A DNA stretch of 64,000 nucleotides. Source: Polytrichum commune. Taxonomy: Eukaryota; Streptophyta; Polytrichopsida; Polytrichales; Polytrichaceae. Shown here piece by piece: positions 5,016-64,000 of this stretch. Both the position numbers and the translations under genes were made by a program. The notes beneath the pieces are model-generated. The model did not search any database. It was not told where the DNA came from and saw only the letters and a program-made list of their open reading frames with translations. Every line of letters begins with the position of its first letter. Positions within the stretch are counted from its first letter, which is position 1. The stretch is from positions 19,207,501-19,271,500 of the forward strand of contig OX485805.1 in NCBI GenBank assembly GCA_950295325.1. The letters run 5' to 3'.

Positions 5016-5531
5016 TAGTGCTCTATAGAACGTCTTGGTATTAAGAGTGTGTGAGAGGAGAGAAATCTCATAATTATAGAACATTTGTACATGATACCAG
5101 AATCTAAGTGAATCTTAAGATTGGAAATCTTAGGCTGGAAGTGAAGGGTTGAGTCTCAAGTTGATGGATGAAGACATGTAGGAGTTGGATGTAACCAATA
5201 TTACGTACATTAGATGAAACCCTAGGTGTTTGTTGCTAGTTAACATGTTTTACTACGAACATGGTTGGCTAGGTTGCTTGTAAAAATAGCAAAAATGGCT
5301 CATGAGCCTTTCCTAGAGTGTTTAAGATATGCATTGAGATGTAGTGATAGTCTTGGGTAGAATTATACTGCAAGTGTTTAACATTAGAAGTTAACCTGAT
5401 CCCTTCAATATGACATAAACATAATGGCAAGTAGGCATAACTAAGACGACTAACTACATTCAAAGCACATGTATATGAACACATTGTGAAAACCATGAGT
5501 TGAAAATGAGGCACATTTTGGGTTGGAATAT

Positions 5532-29830: not shown

Positions 29831-30265
29831 GGGAGGGCGGAATCTAGGAAGACAGGGCGAAGCTACTAGGGAGACCTTGTTGTGCGCTGGCCCACCGGTT
29901 CTCTGCCAACCTCCTCCTTTTTTTGTTCAGATTCTGTTTTGTTTTTGTATAGTTTGTCTCCGCAGAAGCTTTTTGGGGCGAGCTGCACTGTGCGTGTAGG
30001 TGCCCGGCTGTGTGGCCAACATGAGGCACGGCGCTCCGCTTCGGGGATCCGTCGACGGAGCTGGTGGCGGTTCCTGAACGAGGAACATGTCCATCGGTTC
30101 CTGTGGCTACAGGCTCGCTTTCTTCTTTCTTTCTTTTTCTCTCCCTGCGATCTCTCGCTTTAGCGTTCTCCCTTCTCTTGCAGCGGAGGTTCGTCGCTGC
30201 GCAACGCTTTGGCGATATCAAGAAGTACGCACTGTCTTTACACTTTGCAGTCAATAAAGTTGGGA

Positions 30266-31030
30266 GTTTATTTGGCTTGTTATGGAATTTTCTAGGCTCA
30301 CGCATTTGTTCTTCACTCTCTGCTATTGTCGCGAAAATTCTTGTTCCCGAGACGTTGTGGTGAAATCTACTACTCCATGTCGGGTATGTGATGCTTTTAG
30401 TGAATTTAAGCACACCGTCTGTGAACTTGGAGTATAAAGTTTGAGATTATTTGCTTCTATTGTCGTGGAAATTCTTGCTCCTAGACGTTGTGGTGATACT
30501 TTTTACTCGCTGTGAATGAACGCACTTGACGCTTTTAGTGAGACTACGCACACTGTCTGTGAACTTGCAGTATAAAGTTTGAGATCATTTGCTTCTATTG
30601 CCGCGGAAATTCTTGTTCCGAGACGTTGTGGTCATACTTACTACTCAGTGTGAATGAACGCACGTGACACATTTACTGAGACTACGCACACTGTCTGTGA
30701 ACGTGCGGTGTAAATGTTGAGATCATTTGGCTTGTTTTGGAATTTCTAGACTCACGCATTCGTTTTATCTTCGCTCTCTTCTATGGCCGCGGAAATTCTT
30801 GTTACCGAGACTTTGTGGTGATGCTTACTACCCGCTGCCAATGAAGCACGTGACGCTTTTAGTGAGCCTACGCACACTCTCTATGAATATGTGGTATCAA
30901 GTTTGAGATCGTTTGGCTTGTTCTTAAAAGTTCCTGATGCATCCGGTCTATATTTTCTCTTATACTGCTGGAGAGGAAGGTTTTGTTCCGAATAGTTGTT
31001 CTGGTGATGCTTACTACAGGCTCTCTCTAT
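30266..31030 (+). repeat. Degenerate tandem array in the ACR upstream region
   Basis: At least five units start near 30321, 30454, 30591, 30778 and 30962. They share GGAAATTCTTGTTCCGAGAC, GTTGTGGTGATGCTTACTAC, GAATGAACGCACGTGACGC and TAGTGAGACTACGCACACTG. Some also share GGCTTGTT.TGGAATTTCTAG. Units one and two end in TATAAAGTTTGAGAT (TATAAAG at 30433-30439 and 30571-30577), which has decayed to TGTAAAT and TATCAAG in units three and four. No frame is kept open. Confidence 0.7.
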
Positions 31031-34000
31031 TAAGGAACGTAAGTGACGGTTTGAGTTTATTTGTTTTGTGGTTGAATATCTAGAAATTTCTGTTCGATCG
31101 TTCTACTTTGGTTGCGTCAGTGGCTTGAGTTCTGTAGTTTTCCCAGTTCTTCCCGCCGCCGTCAGGTCACAGACGGCAATGACCACAAGAGGGAGTCTGA
31201 GAATTGAACACTCAGCTTACTTTTAAGTAGCATAAATTCTGCAGTTATTATTTAACCTCCCTCATCTCCTACATTTGACATAGGATCAGTTTGAGGAGAA
31301 TTTCGGGCGTCTCTACTTTGTTGTTTTATCAATAGCCCGCACAGATTCTGGTAACGATCTGCGCGTTAATAACGAATTTCTTAAACTTTATTTTCTCCTT
31401 TTAATGGCTTTTTCCGCTCACTTGTTCTTATCAGATACCAGGGTACCTTCAACTACCACTACTTGTTCTTGTGTACTTGTTCTCGTGTCCTCCGTCTCTC
31501 TACCTTGATTTTGTCACGCCCTTCGTTTGCGTTGCTACTTTTTAAACTGGTAGTCAATTGCAACAGGTTTAAAGCCTTGGATTCAAGAACCGTGTCTTGT
31601 AAGTTCGTGCTGGTGGTTTTCCTTGTCCAATGCCCTGTGTCTACCTATCTGTCTTCTTCACGCAATATTATCCTCACCTAGAAGGCCCTGCAAGTTCATG
31701 GGCTGTTGTACCCCATCCAACTAGTATTACCTTCACTCCTTTCAAATCCTATCCTGAACTCGAGTTCTCCGTATTAAGTGCGTATTACACGTCTCCAAAC
31801 AATGATTTCCCGACAGTCTTCTTACTCGTTTCTGTTGCCTTTTCACCTAGTTCTTGGTGTTTTTCCTCGCTAATGGTCCTTTCTTCGTTGAATCCTATTC
31901 CTTCTTTGATGTATCAGCGTCTTTGAACAGCACAGATTTTAGTTCGACGTTCGACGTTCGACCTTCACTTTCATTCTCGGGGTATCATACGGTTAACTCC
32001 ACTCCTTGCCTGTCATCAAGGTGCGGGTTCGTACCTTGAAGCATTTTTTAGACCGCATTGGAGTTGTCTGCCTCTGCATGTCAACAGTGGTACCATCTAA
32101 CTCTGTCCTGGATACTGGACAGTGGTGATGCACTTCAGGCCCTTGTGTTTCTCCTTGTGCAGGGAGCTCTCTTTGTGTAGCACGGTTCTTGCGATCAAGG
32201 ATCGTCATCTTAGACCAGGGCACAGCTGTTAACAGCCAGAAAGTAACGGACTCGCATGCTTAGGTCCTCGTGCCAATCTGTACATTGTGACTGGCAAAAT
32301 GCAAGCAGTACGGAGCTGAGTTTGTTTTGGTGGAGTTCTTGCCTATATTGTGAAATGCGTTCGTCCCCTAGAAGCCTACCATGAAATTGTCGTCCGCGGC
32401 CTCAACGTCTAATAGATCTTGCTAAAAAATGAATGCTTTTATTTTTCTCCTCAGTCATAGCTATTGAAGTTGTCTATATATCATTTCAAAAAGTTTATTA
32501 TGAAATTGAGTACATGGTTGTTCTACATACCTCATGAAAGTGCTCACATCTCAAGAGAGAGTTTGACGGTTTGATACTTCAAGATCATATAATGCTTGTA
32601 ATTCTCCACCAATCATATCAAGTTTTTCATCAAAATAATGAGACTTTTTGATTGTGATGAGTTTTAAAACCAAATCACTACTAATTCCCTTAAAAAAAAC
32701 CCCGAAAATAGCTGTGTGAATTCAACCATATGGATATGCTCTTTTGATGGTGCCTCTCAACTTTTCCTTGTAATAGATCTTACGACTTCTTATTTTATAG
32801 GACATCTTAGAAAATACTTTACCCCTCATGTCCTCGTAGGCCTTAGGGGTTAAGGGACGTGAAAAGCTATTATCTTGTTCGCGGTCACCATTTTTCATGT
32901 CCTACCACTACAAAACACATATGAGATATTATGTCCTGGTTACAAAGAGAAAGTGTATCATGAAGGCTAAATGTTGCCTAAGGACACCGCTCCATGTGCT
33001 AGAGTTGGTCTGGCTTAGTTACACTATTCACAATTACATGGCTAGCGCTTCATTTTGGAAGTTCTCCCTCAATCTTTTGGATAAGGATGACTTTTCTTGG
33101 GGTCTCCCTCTCCTTGACGTCTCTTTGTTTTAGTATTCCTGCATTACTAGGAAGATGATTGAAAATCTTATCCACAATGCTAGGATTTTAGTTCTTCCAT
33201 GGTGGTAGAATTTGGCATCATGAGTCTCTCCGAGGATTGATCACAATTTTTTCTGGGAGCCTACAAGCATTGCATTTATTGGTTACACTGCATATGAGTC
33301 CTAGACAACCCTCCTGTTCAATGAAAGAAATATGCAAATCTACCCCGATTTGTAGAATTTCAAAAATTTCAGTGACGCAGGATGTGTTGCCCAGGGCTCA
33401 TATGCTAGTTAAGTTTTAACTGTCGTATTTGAGAAGGAGTTTCTTTATGTAGGGGCATTTCATAGTCGAGCACATCCTGCTTTTGCACGCCAGGTGAAAA
33501 TCCAAGTGTCTTGGAAGATTTGTACCTGGTTGAAGCAATTATTTTTCCTTTTTAATTGTTATGGTGATAGCGTGTCATTTGCGAGACAAACTTGCTGCTA
33601 TTCTCTTTATCATCAAAACACCCATGTTAGAATTATTCTGTCATGTGATTTCTTACTTGCATTGGTGTCTTAGAAGGCGAGACAGAAAGTCATTATCATG
33701 GGAGTCCCGAGGCCGCTTCAGAGCAATTGCTTGATCATGGTTTTCATGTTTGATTAAGATAATAAATTTTTTGAGTTTCTCACTGTAGATCTGTCAGAAA
33801 ATATGTCCTTTGAGAGCCTAAAGCACACATGTTTTGTGTGCCGAAAATAAGTAAATGGCAGGTATTTTATACGATTTTAGGATATTTAGGGCACGGCTTG
33901 AAACATTGGAAACTGGATGGTGACAAACAAATTCCCCACAAACTTCATTTCTTATCTTCTTTAGTGTGCCCTTTAAAAATTAATTTTTTTCATTAGATTT

Positions 34001-45229: not shown

Positions 45230-46628
45230 CTACTTTCCAGGAGCCTTCTTCTTTCCGGCGATTGTGATCTTCTTGCCCCTCCTTGTCCTAGCATTGCACT
45301 TGGTGTGTTGTCCTCTGCATGGAAGGCCTTGAATGTGGCGTTTCCCTCTGTAACATTGAATATCTTTCAATCGCTTGATGGCCATGGTGTTGAATCGCCT
45401 CTGCACAATGTGTAAGAACATGTCAATAGAGCACACTGGAATGAATAAGAAGACCTAAACTAAGGTACAGGGTGCCAAAACCATCACCACACCCAAAACC
45501 AACACCCTAAAATCCTGCACTACATATCCATATCGATTTTGAGAATGTCCAGCACTTAGCATCACATCAGGTTCCCGTGTTAATTTCGAGCCATCTACCA
45601 TAAGAATTTAACCCTTATAACTTTTGCAGACGATATTCAGATAAAGCATTCTTTGGTGCGTTGTCATGCCCTTTCCATTGCTCACGAGAAACATCTACAA
45701 CTTCATCAATCTATAAATTAGTGGTATTCGCACCCTCCAACATAGTTTTGAAAATTCAATAACCACAAAACCCTAACACGTTCGAAAGAAGGTACTCAGA
45801 ACCCAAGGAAAAGAAACCTTTAGGGCAGATGGACAGAGTGGCTTACAAGGTCTCCCTCAATCATGTACTTGGAGACTTCGTCACGAAGTGTGGTGAGCTC
45901 CTCCTCACTCAGCTCTTTGGCGAACTTGTTGTCAATGCCAACATCAAGCAGTATCTGCCTGGCTGTGGTGCTGCCAACTCCGTGAATGTAAGTCAATGCA
46001 ATCTCAACACGCTTGGCATTGGGAATTTCCACTCCTCCAACACGAGCGCTTCGAATGTTTAGCCCCTTGTAAGCAGTGCCACCGCTCTGTACAACCGCCA
46101 TCAAACCCTGATTAGCGCAATTCCATGACCACTCTCATCCCCACACATCCGCCTTGGCCCTCATCCCTCCCTCCCTCCTCTCATTCCCAACCCTCACTCT
46201 GGAATATACACAGTAAGCGTCTCAATCCTCTGAACATTAGATGTGGCAGAATTCCTCCAACCAGCCCTCATCCTGGCAAAACCAGACCAAGCTTCTCCCA
46301 TCCTCTGGACATTAGAGGTGACAAAATCTCTCATTCCCAACCCACACACCCCGCACAAACGCATCACTCTTCTCCGTCATCTGGACCCTGGAGCTGAATT
46401 TTTTTGTCATTCCCAACCCTCACCCCCGCAGTAACACACAAAACTCCTCGGTTCTCTGCACATTACGACTGTTTCCTTTGACGTGAAGTGAGCTGAATAT
46501 GGAAATTGAGAGTTTTCTGAGGGATAAGTTACCTGGAAAGCTCCGGTGGAGACACGGCGGGCGGGACCTGAAGAGAGGGGAGTCAAGGTGAGGGCGGAGA
46601 GAGCGTGCGCGAGCGATGAGGCCGCCAT
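45230..46628 (-). CDS. RPS13: 30S ribosomal protein S13, chloroplastic (nuclear gene, 3 exons)
   Basis: On the minus strand, exons 46628-46533, 46107-45847 and 45400-45230 (TAG) join in phase 0 with GT-AG borders into 175 residues. Exon 1 encodes a 32-residue Ser/Ala/Thr-rich, acid-free leader ([15 protein letters not shown]...) typical of a plastid transit peptide. Mature S13 begins near [20 protein letters not shown] and has [32 protein letters not shown], then from exon 3 [34 protein letters not shown] and the basic tail AGKKKAPGK. The RHxxGLPxRGQ motif is diagnostic of bacterial-type uS13. The ATG at 46628 is preferred over an upstream GTG in the same frame because it has good context and opens the transit peptide. 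The protein sits in the head of the plastid small subunit and contacts initiator tRNA. A mitochondrial copy is the alternative, but similarity to plastid S13 ([13 protein letters not shown]) is stronger. Confidence 0.93.
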
Positions 46629-48965: not shown

Positions 48966-49850
48966 TAGCAGTCGGTTCTCCCTTTTTCATTGCGGCAAAA
49001 TAATCAAGATATCATCGAGGAAGGCTCTAAACCCTAACCCTAATCCTAGTATAAAATTCACACAGGGGCAAGTGTTGCTCTCATTTTCCACTCCCATTTT
49101 CCCGAGTAATGGAAGAGGGTGCAGGAGTTGGCTTTCTCATGCGCCCAGCGCCATAGCCTGAATAGAACAGCGACCAGGAGCCAGTTGTAGTGGAGAGTGC
49201 AGTGAGGCCAGTTGTGTCTAGAGAGTACTTTGTCAGAAAGGGGGTTTGTCGCAATGTTCATTGGAGTGTAAAGAAAAGTAGGTTTACAATGTTCCTTCAT
49301 GTGTTGGTGTCTCGTAATGTTCTGATACAGGACTCTCCAGGGTGTGTGATGTGATGTTTTTGTGTCGATTTACTGGGACTAACCACTCGTTCGAATGCCC
49401 TTGGAAAGGGAGAGGAGGTCGCGTGGCAGAGTTTCTCTAGGTTGTTTGTGGAGCAGTCCTTTTTATTTCAATAATCGATTTGTAGTTTTAATCAGATTAT
49501 GTGCTGGAGCTGCTGCTAAACGGCTGTAGCGGAAGTGAGATTGAAAGGCCTGTGATGTAATCTACTGTTTGCTACATTTTGGATGGCCTAGGTCAGCTGA
49601 CAAGAAACTACCACCAAGATCTGAGGCCTTTCATACTTCTCAGCATATGTGAATGCAATGCCTAATATAAAGACACTTACTCGGAAACTATGTAGATTTA
49701 GTGTTATTTTTCTTGGGTTCTGAAATTTTTAGGTGGACTTGCCGCTGTAGTAGGTGAACTTTAGGTTTTCACTCGATGTCTCACAAACATTATTCACGAA
49801 TACTCCATCCATAGTGTCACTAAATCTCCACCAAGTCTTCTACCATGAAA
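48966..49850. other. No recognisable gene; telomere-like motif
   Basis: AAACCCTAACCCTAATCC at 49029-49046 is a short interstitial telomere-like or telo-box motif. The GC-richer stretch 49060-49600 reads like an untranslated leader, but no downstream coding exon was found. Confidence 0.35.
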
Positions 49851-50110
49851 CATCCATCGAGTGTGCTGCAATTAAACCTTCACGAAGATTGCTGGCACTA
49901 AATGTGTAACAAGATTGCTACCACTTGATGTCCAGCAAGATTGCTACCACTTGATGTCCATCAAGATTGCTGCCACTAAATGCCCATCAAGATTGCTGCC
50001 ACTAAATGTCCATCAAGATTGCTGCTACTACTAAACCTCCATCAAGATTGTTGCCACTACTAAACTTCCATCAAGAGAGCTGCCACTAAACCTCCATCAA
50101 CAGTCTCCAC
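49851..50110 (+). repeat. 26-27-bp minisatellite, about nine units
   Basis: The unit is built on CCATCAAGATTGCTGCCACT plus AAATGT. Edge units vary (ACGAAG, CAGCAAG, CTACTAAAC insertions), while central units are near-identical. The 26-bp period does not keep a frame. Confidence 0.85.
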
Positions 50111-55927: not shown

Positions 55928-56989
55928 TAAATTCAAAGTGCTTAGCACTGGCAGAATGTGCAAGTCTGCATTTATCCATTGAGCTCCATTTGGGATGACC
56001 AATGAAGGCCTCCTTTGAGAAGTTAGGAAGATGATGCATGCTTTGAACGCCTTCTTAGTGATAATTCTTGTTCCTCACCATCTATAGAGCTATATATTGT
56101 TGAAACTACAACGTTTATTAGTGTTACACATAAACATGAGCTCCTGGTATTAAAGGAGACTCATCCTCATGGGATAGATGGTCCCACTGTATGCAACCAA
56201 GGAGCTATGTGAATGTTATGTCCGACTGACAATCAAGGACAAACGACTAGTTTTTCAGATTATGCTCTAGCTTGGTTTCTTTTCAATAGTAGTCAAATGG
56301 GTGAAAAACCGTTTGATTGCTAACCAAATCATCATCCTAATAGTGCATTTTATTCACGAGAAATGCATTTGATATCTAAGTTGACATAACAACCTCTTGC
56401 ATTTAAAAGGGTGGTTTACACTACAAAGGTGGGTGTGATTGTGGCTAAACACCACATTCAACCATAAGAACAAGTCCTCACTCATTCACACATGTACTAG
56501 ACAGTCTTATTAGTGTGGCGGAATATTAGCATGGAATTAATTAGGGTGGGCTACACTAATTTTGTAGTGACGGTGGATATAATGTGGGTCTAAGACATTT
56601 GGGTCTTCCTGTAAGTCTTCATCATGAAGACTTTCATGAAGACCAACACATCAAACATTAGTTAATTACTTGACGAAAGTAGCACAAAATCAATAATCTT
56701 GCACATTAATTTTCTAGCCAAAAAAATAAAATTAATGTGGCCCATGTTAATTTTCTATGAGAAACTAATTAAACAAGGGTTGGAAAATGATGCGGCCCAC
56801 ATTAATTCTCATTATGAGAATCGCATGGATTCTTAAAAGAAATAATTATGGCCTAAATATAGGACTATTTACTGTAGTTTGTGAAATGTTATGGTTATCA
56901 AATGATGGTTGAGTCAATGTTTTGAATTGCAACCTTACCACCACCACCACTTTGTCCATTGTAATCTCTAACTTTGTAATATGACACTT
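55928..56989. other. No recognisable gene
   Basis: Short frames only. There are local direct words (ATTAATTTTCTA twice near 56706-56757) but no delimited element. Confidence 0.4.
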
Positions 56990-57317
56990 GTTGCAACCAA
57001 AATGCACCTGATTCATGTAGTGTTAACATGAATGCATGATAAAAATGAATTAGTACATGTAGCATGTGACATTATGAAATAACACAAAGTCAACAGTGCA
57101 AGAATGACAATACTTCCAATGATGACAACGTGATGCGTGCGAGCAAGCATGTGGTTTGAACCCTCTGATGATATATTTCAATATCAGAACCTGTGATATA
57201 TGGGAGGGAAAGTTGACAATAAGTGGTGAGGTTTACACTAAGAACATCCGTTCCGTTCTGTTCCCTAGGGTTTGGGGATATGAGAGGAGGAGTGACATTA
57301 GGGGGGTTGACATTGCG
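56990..57317 (+). mobile_element. Partial copy of the 465-bp TA-target element
   Basis: GTAGTGTTAACATGAATGCATGAT to TGACATTGCGGAGT is colinear with 23300-23690. Both outer TIRs are eroded. Confidence 0.5.
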
Positions 57318-57579
57318 GAGTGTTATTAGAATGGGGTGGGTTAGGAGGCCCAAAAGCTGCCAGCAGGATGGATGAATGTCGCCAGGTGGTCAGTGTCATC
57401 CACTCCGAGGCTGAAAGAGAAGTGCCAAGTGTGAGCCAAATGGCGAGCATGAGGAAGGTGGCTGGCCTCCTTCCCTTCCTTTCCTTTCCTTGCATTGCGC
57501 AGCCACCCCGCTAGTCAGGCTCTTCAACCATTTTGTGTTTCGCCACAAATCATCACCACTGGGGCTATGTTTCGACAAC

Positions 57580-59260
57580 AGAAATTTTCGGTAAGCTCTC
57601 CCAATCGGTCTTAGAGAAGCTTGACGCTGTGAATTGCTGGAGCTTGTAGTGAGTTAGGTCCCTAGCTTCACTGGAGTTCCTGGAGGTGAGATTGCTCTAG
57701 TCGCCGTACAGGACCAGGGGCATTGCATTGGTTTAGTTGAGAAGCAGCAATTGCAACGTCTAAGCGATAAGAAAGCAGTGGGAAACCGCTGTGGCGGTGA
57801 TTCGGCGACAGAAGCGTTTCGTGATTTCTCCCGATTAAGCTGATAGAAGCTTTCGGCTGCGCGTTACTGGGGTTTGTAGTAGGCTATGTCCGTAGTTTCT
57901 CTGGATGTTATGGAGCTCTGAAGCGTGTAGGCTTTTGAAATTCGAGGTCTCCGAGCACTTAGAGAAAGGCGAGCTTGCATTAGTTGACGTAGAGGACCAT
58001 AGCATTGCACTGTCGGTTCACTTAAGAAGCAGGGCTTGCAATGCGTAGGCAACAGGAAATTACTGTGGTTGTGTGACGGCAACAGAATTGTGTGCTAGTT
58101 TCTCCCGATTGAGTTGAGAGTGGCTTCAGGTTGGGCGCTACTGGAGCTTGTAGTAAGTTATTACTGAAGATTCTGTGGATTTTCTGGAGCTCTGAAGCGT
58201 TTAGTCTTCGAATTTCGTGCTCTCTGAGCACTTGCAGGAAGATGAGCTTGCACTTATGTACGTAGGGGGCCATCGCACTGCTTTCGTTCGCTTAAGAATG
58301 AGGTCTGTAAAAAACGTGTTAGGCGATAATCCAGACGTGTTAGGCGATAGGAAGCATTTGGAGGAGCAAGGAACTCGTGCGAGGAACAGGAAGGATTGTT
58401 CTGAGAATTTCGATATGGTGGAAAATAGGAGGAGGAAAAATAGTCTGTTAAAGAAACTGATCATGTAGACGATGTTATGCGACTTCATTGCATATTCAGC
58501 GCTTCCTCTCCTTTCCGTGCCTCCGCCATTTAACAATTTCCCGTGGCATTATTGTCGCTGTTTCTTGGCAAGAGCAGATTTCGTTAAGCTCTCGCAAGGT
58601 TAGAGGGGGGTTACAGGAGCTGGAGTTGTGCCGAAGTCGTGCACAGCCAGCTCTTGCTATATGTCACTAGTTTGCGTGGTTTTCTGTAGCTCTTAAGCGA
58701 TTAGATATCGATTTTGGTGGGCATTGGAATGTGAGCTTGCGATAGCTGGCGTAGGCGATTGTCGCACTGGATTGAAGGTCTCAAGAAACAGGAGTGGACG
58801 GTTTAGGCGATAGGGAAAATCTGAACAAGAAGTTGGAATTATTGACATAGAGAACTTTGGTAGGGGTGGAATAGAAGCAAGAGAAATTAGTTTAAATCGA
58901 ATTTGATCGTCTACACGCTGTACTGCACTATAATTTTCAGCGCTTTCCTTTCTTTCCTTTTCTTCGCCATCAAACACGTTCCTTCGATAGCGCTGTGCTT
59001 TCCGTATTTGCAAGAGAATGCTAACCAAAGGTCAAAGCAGATTGAGAAATCGTAGTGACCATCGCATTGCAGTGAGTTCGTTCTTCAAGAAAGAGGAATG
59101 CAATGTTTAGCCGAGAGGACATCTTTGAATTACAAAAGAGCTCCTCCGAGGATTCGAAAGAACTTTCATAGGGGTGGGGTTTTAGAAGGAGATTTATCTT
59201 AGAAAGAATTACCCCTCTGTAATGCGCTTTCCTTGCACATGTAGGATGCATGATTCCATA
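57580..59260 (+). repeat. Degenerate tandem-repeat leader upstream of ALDH21
   Basis: Units of about 250-280 bp start near 57590, 57825, 58096 and 58565, with a partial unit at 59035. Shared blocks in order are TTTCTCCCGATTAAGCTGA, TACTGGAGCTTGTAGT, TGGAGCTCTGAAGCGTTTAG, GAGCTTGCATTAG..GACGTAGAGGACCAT, GCATTGCACTG, TTAAGAAGCAGG, TGCAATG and TTAGGCGATAGG. Later units add TTCAGCGCTTTCC and TTCTTCGCCAT. No frame stays open, so it is non-coding. It ends about 540 bp before the ALDH21 ATG and shares no sequence with the ACR array. Confidence 0.7.
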
Positions 59261-59798
59261 TCTACGAATCTTGGCGATGTATTGCTTGAGAACAAATACT
59301 TCAGATAATCTACTTTGATTCGAGTAATTTGTGTTATACCTCTATCAATTCCTGACCTCAGCTTTCATCCGCAAGATTCGATGGATCCATCTGATGAGAT
59401 CCAAACTAGTCTTTTTGATGGTTTTCGTACAAGCCACCAAGGGGTAATCAAGAATTGTTTAGCGTTTTTTGAATATGTTTCGTATCAACACACGAATGAA
59501 AATCACTCAGTTATTGTATGTCTCACTTGCACATGCAGTTGATAGATTAAAGGCAGTTGCAGACATTGACCTATACTCACTCACATGCGAAGTTGCCCAA
59601 CTCTCTCGTTAGTATGTGCAAGGGACTAGTCACACCTCCATTGCCTTTGTACTGACGAGAATTTTTTGTTTCGATGAATGATTGTTTGCATCAGTGAACG
59701 TTTGCGTGGAAGGGCGTTCGGTTCGAGTTTCGGCTTCATCATTCAAGTCTATAAGGATCTGCAATTTTCTCATTCACAAACAAATTTTTTGTTTGAAG

Positions 59799-62700
59799 AT
59801 GGCGATTGAGGATGTTTTGCAGAAGGTGAGGGAGAGCACCCAAGATCCCACAAAGAAGTATCACATGTTTATAGCCAACAAGCCTGTGTCAGGGAATCGC
59901 AAGTATCTAGAAGTCACCAACAAATACACAGGAGAAGTTGGTATGATTCTACGCCTCTTCTTAGTAAATCCCACAAGAGTTGACACGCTTGTTTCACTTC
60001 TGCTAAGAATGTGTTACTGCAGCAGTATGTTGGTATGTGTTCCCGTAGTCAATGCATTTTCAATTTCGGGCTTGAGATTTATTCGTGCATTGTTATCCCT
60101 CACAATCATTTGAAGGAGATGATCGAGATGAGTGACATGGATGCCTAGTTTAAACCATTTGAAATTTGTTGTATTACTGTTGTCTGCAATGAGAATCCAG
60201 GTCAGCAACTACAAGAAGACTGAGGTTTCTGGCTTTCAAACAAATGCTCACATAATTGTGTGTGAAATATTGGTATTACAGCTGCAAAGGTGCAGTTGGC
60301 AACACACAAAGACATTGATGAGGCAATCAATGCAGCTGTTAAAGCAACCCCAGCCATGGCTGCAATGGCGTCCTATGAACGCAAAGCTGTGCTTGAGAAG
60401 GTTTGTGCCTGTGCTACCACGTGCAGCATATCATGTAGCATTCTTTCAAATTTAAAGTGTGCAATTAGAACTCTTGTAAATAGATTATGGAAAAGTGATG
60501 AAATGGTAATTGCGGATCAGGTGGTGGCTGAGTTGAGGAGGCGATCGGAGGAGATTGCCCACACACTAACTTTGGAGTCTGGGAAACCCATTAAAGACGC
60601 AAAAGGCGAAGTTGCACGCTCAATTGACACATTCCAAGCTGCGGCAGAGGAAAGTGTTCGTATCTATGGAGAGCACATGCCCCTTGATATTTCCGCACGA
60701 AACAAGGGCCTTCAGGTACTTAATAGTCAAATCTCGCGATGTAATGCATTCATGGGAGGATGGGAATCTGCGATCATTGGAACCGTTTCTTGTTACTACA
60801 TGAATTTTGCGATTTATCGATTCATAGCTCTTCTTATTATGTTATCATGTGGCCCGAGCCATGGGTATAACTTTATGTTTTGGATCCCAATCAAGTGGTG
60901 GCATCTCACGATCGAGTAGAGGAGCATACTATGGAAATGATTCAATGAAGATGGTAAGAGAAATTTGAAGACAAACACTATCGAAATTTCTGGCTAGAGT
61001 AATCTTTAAGTTGTTTGATTTAAAAAATTTCCATAAAGACAAGTGACACAATTTCCACTGCCAGTCGTGGCTGTGATAGTCTGAAACTGTTGCACACGAT
61101 TTTATTCTAGATTCTTTTGTAGTGGTAAAGTACGAGTTCAGGGTAGACAATCGAACTGTGTCATTTAATAGCCAAGAAAGAGGAAAGTTCAGAAGTGGTG
61201 ATCGAACCTTGATTATTACTTTGAACTTGTTGCTACAAGCTTCATAAATGAAACCGTGTGGTGGTTTGCAGAACAAATTATTGACTGTACTATGTTTGTT
61301 GATGAATAATAGGGAATCGTAAGGAAGTTCCCAATTGGCCCAGTGTCAATGGTTAGCCCATGGAATTTTCCTCTCAACCTGGTGGCACACAAGGTCGCGC
61401 CAGCAATTGCTGTGGGATGCCCCTTTGTGTTGAAACCAAGCAGCAGGACACCCCTGTCGGCCCTTATATTGGGAGAGATTCTGCAAGGCTGTGATTTGCC
61501 AGAGGGTGCATTCTCAATCCTTCCTGTGTCACGGGAGGATGCTGACATGTTTACGACTGATGAGAGGTTCAAGCTCTTGACATTCACTGGCTCGGGTGTT
61601 GCTGGGTGGGGCATGAAAGCCCGAGCTGGTAAGAAAAAGGTACGAGGACATTTTCACGTCAAGGAAGAAAAGAGACTTTAAAGTTTTTGCTGTGGCTGTA
61701 GTGGTTATAGTAAGAACCTCAGTCTGCGATATGGTGAGATGGGTGATGGAAATTGCATCAAATTTCCAATGACGTTGAAAACATCGAGTTAAGGGATAAG
61801 TTTCTTCAAGTTATATTCCTCGAAGCATTTTGATATTTGAATGGACGGTGAGTACGGATGAATCTGGAAATGTTGTTAGCACTAATACTATTTGGATACT
61901 ACTGACTGAACCGGGTGTCCTGATGTTGATCCATTTTGAACCACGTCACACATGTTTTAGTTTTGACTAGGTTGTTGACGCTTCTATTCTGTCCTGGATG
62001 TATTGTGAATAGGTGGTGATGGAGTTGGGTGGAAATGCACCATGCATCGTGGAAGATTTGGTTCCAGATTTGGACTACACAGTTCAAAGGTTGATCAATG
62101 GTGGGTTCTACCAGGGTGGTCAATCGTGCATCCACATGCAACGTCTTTATGTCCATGAGCGCCTTTACAAAGAGGTATTGTGCTGGACTTGATTCTGTAG
62201 TGGCGAAACATACATGTGACAACGGGTTTAATTGATGGTTAGACTAGGCGATGCTCTCAGAAATTCCTAACATTGGCATCAAAGACATTCTTCCATTTTT
62301 TATAATGATAGTAGCAGTTTCAGAAACAATTCCCTCTTCCTTACATTCATGCTGGAGGGTGTGCTTCATATGAGGATTCAACAATCAACAATCAACCTGA
62401 AGTGGAGATGATAATATCTTTGGCCATGTCTCCAGAATCCATTGCACCAAACCTATTTGGTCCACAGATTGTCATGTTTATAGCAAAGATCTGGCTTTCC
62501 ACATGTGCCCGAGTGCTGATGCTGGGAATTTTAAGTTTGATGACATGAGATTGGATTCCTATTGATAGCACTTCATGCATGGGACAGGTTAAGGACGCTT
62601 TTCTCGCTGCCGTGAAGAAGCTCAAGATGGGCAATCCATTTGAGGAGGATACATATCTTGGGCCAATGATCTCTGAGTCGGCTGCCAAGGGTATCGAGGA

Positions 62701-64000
62701 GTGGGTGAAAGAGGCAGTCGAGAAAGGTGGAAAGCTCCTCACAGGTGGAAGCTGCAAAGGTGCATTTATGCAGCCAACAGTGCTTGAAGATGTACCTATG
62801 GAAGCCAATGCTCGGAAGGAGGAAATCTTTGGACCCGTTGTACTTTTGTACAAATACAAGTAAGTGCCACTCTTGTCAAAGCACAAAACTAAAGTTTTCC
62901 AAGTACATTTGTCCCACAATATTTAGTACCCTGTATGGCTTTTCATTGACAAAGAGGGTCTCTCTCGGTTCCATAAGGTAGACGGGTCTTAAGTGGCTCG
63001 TTTTTTTAATCAGACCCCTAGATTTGATCGTTACTTGGTTCGATGAGGATCAAAGAGCAAACATCATATAAAAACACATGTTTTAATGAGGATTGGACTA
63101 CGTCTTCAAATATCAATAACTACTTCACTCTCAATAGTGAACACGATTGGGAGGACCCATGTATCCAGTTAAGAAATCAACAAACATGCACTTCCGATAA
63201 CCATAAGTAAATCAGGGGAGGTTTGATTTTCAACCCGGTTTTTGGCAGACGTTTCATCGCAGATTTGCTAGTGCAGCACGAGTGTCATTGTGTAAATCTA
63301 ATCGGTAGAAGTTGGAGAACATGAAAATGAAAAACGAACCAAATAACACCCACATACCTTACATGGACATTGCAAAGCTCTGACTATGTGAAATGCTACT
63401 CCTCTGTGTGATGCCAGGACCTTCAAGGAGGCTGTCGAGGAGTGCAACAATACTCACTATGGCTTGCAATCGGGTGTTTTCACTAGTGACTTGAACAAAG
63501 CCTTCTATGCATTCGAACATATGGAGGTCAGTCACTCGTCCTTCCACCAATCTGCTCGAAATATTCTCAAAACACATAGCTTTTTCCAACTCTTGTCAAA
63601 ACACTCTCGAGCCACACTGATTACCCCAAATAGCGCGTGTTACTATCTGGAGTTACGCAGTGCATTAGCGTCCTAATCAGGAGTTCTATGTTTAATAACA
63701 AAAGGTCAACAGGTTGTTCGGACATTATACACCCTAAACTCCGTGATATTCACCCCCCCAATGTCACACACTCTCTAATATCCCGACACCCTAAGGGAAT
63801 GGATGTTCGTAGTTCAAATCTCACTCCCTATTGTCACACTTCTCTCCCTTATGTCACGAAATTTGTCTTTAATCCAAACCACCCAAGAAGTCAACCCACA
63901 CCCTCACATTGCGCCATGTGTCAACATGTGGAGTGTCTTCTTCTTCTTCTTCTTCTTATGCCACTTGTTGAATGTTGGTGCATGCGTCCGCCACATTGCC
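59799..64000 (+). CDS. ALDH21: Aldehyde dehydrogenase, ALDH21-type (3' end outside window)
   Basis: Exons 59799-59940, 60282-60400, 60521-60715, 61313-61639, 62013-62174, 62588-62859 and 63418-63526 join in phase into 442 residues. Families of this kind are near 500 residues, so the last 50-60 residues lie in one or more exons beyond base 64000. ALDH landmarks are all present: SPWNFPLN with catalytic Asn170; FTGSG at 243-247 in the cofactor-binding fold; VVMELGGN with general base Glu265; GGQSCI with nucleophile Cys300; EEIFGPVV at 393-400. No transit peptide is visible ([17 protein letters not shown]), so it is probably cytosolic. PWNFPLN and GGQSC separate it from NADP-GAPDH (ALDH11). [17 protein letters not shown] and the overall sequence recall ALDH21 of mosses and lycophytes, described as NADP-dependent succinic semialdehyde dehydrogenase linked to desiccation tolerance. 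The subfamily call is from memory of the family. Intron 6 carries a dispersed repeat. Confidence 0.82.
63025..63362 (+). repeat. Dispersed repeat copy inside ALDH21 intron 6
   Basis: Colinear with 46803-47120. The copy lies in the same strand sense as the gene, between exons 62588-62859 and 63418-63526. It ends about 55 bp before the acceptor at 63416-63417. Confidence 0.65.
63730..64000 (-). mobile_element. 465-bp TA-target element, inverted, cut by window edge
   Basis: Begins TA-CACCCTAAACTCCGTGATAT and follows the reverse complement of 23698 downward (TCTCTAATATCCCGACACC, GTAGTTCAAATCTCACTCC). A CTT run lies at 63937-63957. It lies in the intron after the last visible ALDH21 exon. Confidence 0.65.

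Follow-up and report, generated by a model that had tools for sequence, protein, structure and literature searches.

The DNA in front of the ALDH21 gene of the moss Polytrichum commune is repetitive and non-coding, which raises the question of what the repeat is and whether it belongs to the gene that follows. The 64,000-nucleotide stretch analyzed here (the window) is C3:19207501-19271500 of a 408 Mb genome, nearly all bases of which lie in seven large contigs (42-78 Mb). From its ATG, the gene occupies 59799-63600 of the plus strand (end approximate), with a first coding exon at 59799-59940. The best solved relative of its product is the ALDH21 structure 5mz5, whose 572 bits leave the other aldehyde dehydrogenases far behind (the next entry scores 363), and the assignment to the ALDH21 type in an earlier note on this DNA is confirmed. 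A single ALDH21 locus is present in the genome. ALDH21, which encodes a stress enzyme in mosses, has been transferred to crops for tolerance (e.g., PMC10053822); a literature search for a published moss ALDH21 leader or promoter returned nothing usable on 5′ structure. Elsewhere in the window, 49547-49628 matches the snoRNA SNORD24, after which 8-11 copies of a 26-bp unit stand in tandem (49818-50100), and an exon for ribosomal protein S13, probably of the organelle type and nucleus-encoded, lies on the minus strand at 45820-46134.

A self-comparison of 57-60 kb, proposed beforehand in the earlier note, gave a ladder of off-diagonals and thus significant tandem similarity. The strongest match pairs 57684-58036 with 57967-58306 (71%, E 4e-52), and further matches reach 59210. 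Five diverged units occupy 57464-59243, with main local alignments ∼62%-71% alike. Each of the ten unit pairs scores above all 200 dinucleotide-preserving shuffles, by a narrow margin for U1-U5 and U3-U5, and a profile built from the units places copies at 57467-57781, 57784-58059, 58059-58491, 58493-58930, and 58973-59236, with no other significant copy in the window. Tandem Repeats Finder did not report the array. The claim of at least four units and a partial fifth is thereby borne out. As had been stated, the array ends ∼540 bp before the ALDH21 ATG, but it starts ∼115 bp earlier than was thought.

All five units lie on the plus strand and share an order of blocks that is complete only in U4: a pyrimidine-rich block E, then A, B, C (which contains the GGCGATAGG piece), and D. 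U1 (57464-57784) has a pyrimidine-rich block at 57462-57496, an A block at 57555-57685 with GTAAGC at 57591, and a C block, and is without ∼53 bp of the middle block. U2 (57785-58061) consists of A, B, and C and is without the last blocks. U3 (58062-58492) has A, B, C, and D, with a TTAGGCGATA piece duplicated inside C. In U4 (58493-58932), block E (58502-58524) precedes A to D, and the partial U5 (58933-59243) has block E (58940-58971), remnants of A and B, and then C and D. The blocks therefore do recur in order, but the units are unequal, with U1, U2, and U5 incomplete. Nor does each unit end in TTAGGCGATAGG, as had been proposed: the exact string is restricted to U3 and U4. As a genome-wide motif it is near chance, with eight occurrences against five for the reversed control. 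Three pyrimidine tracts are present in the array, the first being that at 57462-57496; tracts of this kind occur near plant transcription starts.

In a multiple alignment, the units differ by 29%-50%, with many indels in addition. A coding repeat or pseudogene was considered and rejected: substitutions fall 27/34/25 over the three phases, with no excess at third codon positions, the indels are 1, 3, 11, 1, 2, and 1 and so mostly out of frame, and a Pfam search gave no match. The description of an old, diverged, non-coding array before ALDH21 therefore holds. The same cannot be said of the suggestion that it forms a long structured 5′ leader. A riboswitch-like or IRES-like RNA would suit the position before the ATG, but the array does not fold beyond its shuffles (z-scores −0.85 and −1.63), the consensus fold of the units amounts to only −1.4 kcal/mol and loses many of its pairs in some of them, and no Rfam family was matched. 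Such a leader is very improbable.

The array had also been described as locus-specific, and this proved incorrect. With the full array region as a genome query, itself was the only match. The unit consensus, in contrast, found one other locus, C2:6732537 (73%, E 3e-14), on another chromosome. The gene 3′ of this copy is FAM91 (Pfam FAM91_N and FAM91_C), with its ATG at position 5285 of the extracted locus L048. One copy, oriented as at ALDH21, aligns there to positions 50-466 of the 467-position unit profile (E 1.2e-32, with the 10-kb locus as the search space). The homology at FAM91 begins ∼1.3 kb before the ATG, with a left edge at L048 ∼3940; close to this edge, the block E piece 58954-58996 matches L048 3949-3991 weakly (E 0.004). 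Beyond the array, a single-copy tail at 59269-59394 of the plus strand continues the collinearity with DNA upstream of FAM91, in stretches of 34 bp (88%) and 68 bp (71%). The 88% part is 59269-59302, and the homology runs on to 59394, ending ∼405 bp before the ALDH21 ATG and ∼330 bp before that of FAM91. A collinear segment in the same orientation thus stands before the ATG of both genes. Whole-genome-duplication synteny of the two loci was unsupported, since 24 kb around FAM91 matched only dispersed repeats and the segment. The FAM91 region also contains a 94-aa open frame, for which neither a family nor a relative was found. Dispersed-repeat pieces also flank ALDH21 on both sides (56966-57095, 57180-57301, and 63772-63873), and the same repeats occur near FAM91 on C2.

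Two dispersed places are what an old transposable element that landed before both genes might leave behind, and two of the dispersed-repeat pieces (57180-57301 and 56966-57095) flank the array on its upstream side. Scatter of the repeat through the genome as a transposon, which the earlier note had named as evidence against its proposal, was not seen: the best-conserved 29-mer, from the stretch after the array, occurs at exactly two places in 408 Mb with ≤3 mismatches (none for the reversed control). At ∼70% identity, DNA searches of the genome lack sensitivity: the known ALDH21 copy was missed by a 471-bp query taken from the FAM91 locus, so further copies may exist. However, 0 of 15 random 8-kb pieces contained a related copy, both known copies are sense-oriented directly before a gene, and their CpG is raised rather than depleted. 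An element remnant is an improbable source. A copia-type retroelement locus (L050 1047-1618, in the region of C4:30427404) carries two pieces of the FAM91 upstream region, of 118 bp at 94% and 44 bp at 86%. This is likely host sequence picked up by the element from upstream of FAM91; if it was taken from RNA, the FAM91 segment would be transcribed.

The composition of the segment bears on its nature. The observed/expected CpG ratio is 0.88 in the ALDH21 array versus 0.36 upstream of it. Random pieces average 0.50 (SD 0.14), and the array value is reached by 1.8% of random 1.8-kb pieces. At the left edge of the FAM91 homology the ratio changes from 0.51 to 0.98, and at ALDH21, where the homology begins, from about 0.4 to 0.6-1.3. 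Raised CpG together with sense orientation before a gene favors a gene 5′ end over a methylated transposon. Moreover, the skews of the array (G>C, T>A) share their sign with those of ALDH21's own introns.

As an array, the repeat is not very unusual. A diverged direct repeat (E < 1e-6, within 4 kb) was present in 13 of the 15 random 8-kb pieces, and six contained an array, defined as a stretch of ≥400 bp with three or more local copies. Degenerate local arrays are therefore ordinary in this genome, and it is the CpG-rich setting that sets the ALDH21 array apart, arrays within the random pieces having ratios of 0.33-0.77. A second and stronger diverged, non-coding tandem array in the window (30230-31056, ∼134/268-bp period) lies where the window is richest in CpG (ratio ∼1.0), 3′ of a pyrimidine-rich tract; the exons at 35.7-37.2 kb, downstream of it and on the same strand, encode an ACT domain. 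It resembles the ALDH21 array in being non-coding, in following a pyrimidine-rich tract, in its high CpG, and in its place 5′ of same-strand exons, but differs in period and is unrelated in sequence.

These base rates lend weight to the view that the ALDH21 array is a neutral passenger: a tandem duplication of long standing, in gene-flanking DNA that tolerates such changes, with no function of its own, transcribed or not. The extent of divergence between units, with its many indels, fits this view, as does the absence of coding, folding, and motif signals alike. Against it are the persistence of the segment despite divergence and the raised CpG in two gene 5′ regions. Neutrality is hard to tell apart from the reading preferred below and is a serious possibility, somewhat short of an even chance; it overlaps the other readings, and the likelihoods assigned here do not sum to one.

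A candidate splice donor in U1, TCG GTAAGC (57588-57596, plus strand, cut before GTAAGC), stands where the FAM91 copy has GCG GTAAGT, the top-scoring donor of the FAM91 upstream region. The corresponding place reads GTGATT in U2, CTAGTT in U3, and TTAAGC in U4. A donor confined to U1 within the array is expected if the A block ends a first exon and the first copy alone still serves. The pattern is suggestive of a first-exon end and is not put more strongly because the U1 site scores moderately, seventh of 148 GT sites (58599 and 57686 score higher), on an approximate matrix. The intron-enhancement motif TTNGATYTG is not enriched in the array, with one match (≤1 mismatch) against a random mean of 2.45.

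Alternatively, the array could be an untranscribed, multiplied regulatory segment, a promoter or enhancer, with ALDH21 transcription starting near the ATG. A TATA-like TATAAG lies at 59750-59755 of the plus strand, ∼49 bp 5′ of the ATG, where it would mark a rival proximal start; raised CpG extends over 59600-59799 as well, and short blocks like GGCGATAGG are somewhat better kept than the remainder of the units (74% versus 59%). A start set by this site would, however, leave a leader of just ∼20 nt, FAM91 has no TATA-like site in its upstream region, and an intron accounts better for the strand skews and the donor-like site. A multimerised promoter, as the earlier note had envisaged, is thus possible from the sequence, but a purely upstream role for the array appears rather unlikely.

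The reading that best accommodates the data, to which a probability of about one half is given, is that the array is a tandemly expanded, CpG-rich gene-5′-end segment common to FAM91 and ALDH21, forming a promoter edge together with a long leader intron. The ancestral segment would have comprised a pyrimidine-rich edge, a short non-coding exon with a GTAAG donor at its end, and a few hundred bases from the start of the leader intron. Duplication of this segment would have placed copies before two unrelated genes, FAM91 and ALDH21, followed by tandem growth to five units at ALDH21 only, most likely by unequal exchange, with U1-U3 the youngest. The first unit alone would have kept the donor-like site, while the inner copies, as intron or plain upstream DNA, decayed. 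ALDH21 transcription would then start near the pyrimidine tract, at ∼57.46-57.58 kb, and the first exon would be spliced from ∼57591 to an acceptor immediately 5′ of the ATG, so that the array leaves with a long leader intron. Like 5′ introns elsewhere among plants, mosses included, this intron may raise or tune ALDH21 expression.

The relationships among the units agree in part with such a history. In a tree, U1-U3 form a clade (97%-98% support), with U4, U5, and the FAM91 copy outside it, and the last expansions therefore took place at ALDH21 after the loci had parted. The pairing of U5 with the FAM91 copy is weak (63%-79%) and allows an array older than the inter-locus copy, a point against the proposed order of events; judged from the tree, the first tandem step could have come either before or after the copying between loci. 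Two further points count against the preferred reading: a proximal start could be marked by the TATA-like sequence at 59750, and a donor of 6 bp could persist by chance where identity is ∼73%. An active role for the array, in addition, has against it the lack of TTNGATYTG enrichment and the high base rates of arrays.

Enhancing 5′ introns are recorded in plants, including a moss (reviews PMC6374622 and PMC2682935), the Physcomitrella actin 5′ introns cited there being an example. The ALDH21 array is like these introns in its probable place between the likely start region and the ATG, in its donor-like GTAAG, and in a T- and G-rich sense strand. Unlike them, it is a fivefold diverged repeat in which TTNGATYTG is not enriched. 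The segment shared by FAM91 and ALDH21 also resembles a promoter or leader duplication between unrelated genes, having the same orientation and a similar distance to the ATG, but it is old (30%-50% different) and tandemly expanded at one locus. Literature searches yielded no description of a shared tandem leader.

A broader generalization, that leader introns and promoter edges in this genome are often old diverged tandem units and that leader modules move between unrelated genes, is speculative and probably goes too far. If it were true, the arrays before ALDH21 and the ACT-domain gene would both stem from a single process generating dosage-like expression elements. For ALDH21 itself, the 5′ region offers a natural test of whether expression is tuned by the number of leader or promoter copies, and the homology to FAM91 indicates that seemingly locus-specific non-coding repeats can conceal a duplicated gene 5′ end.
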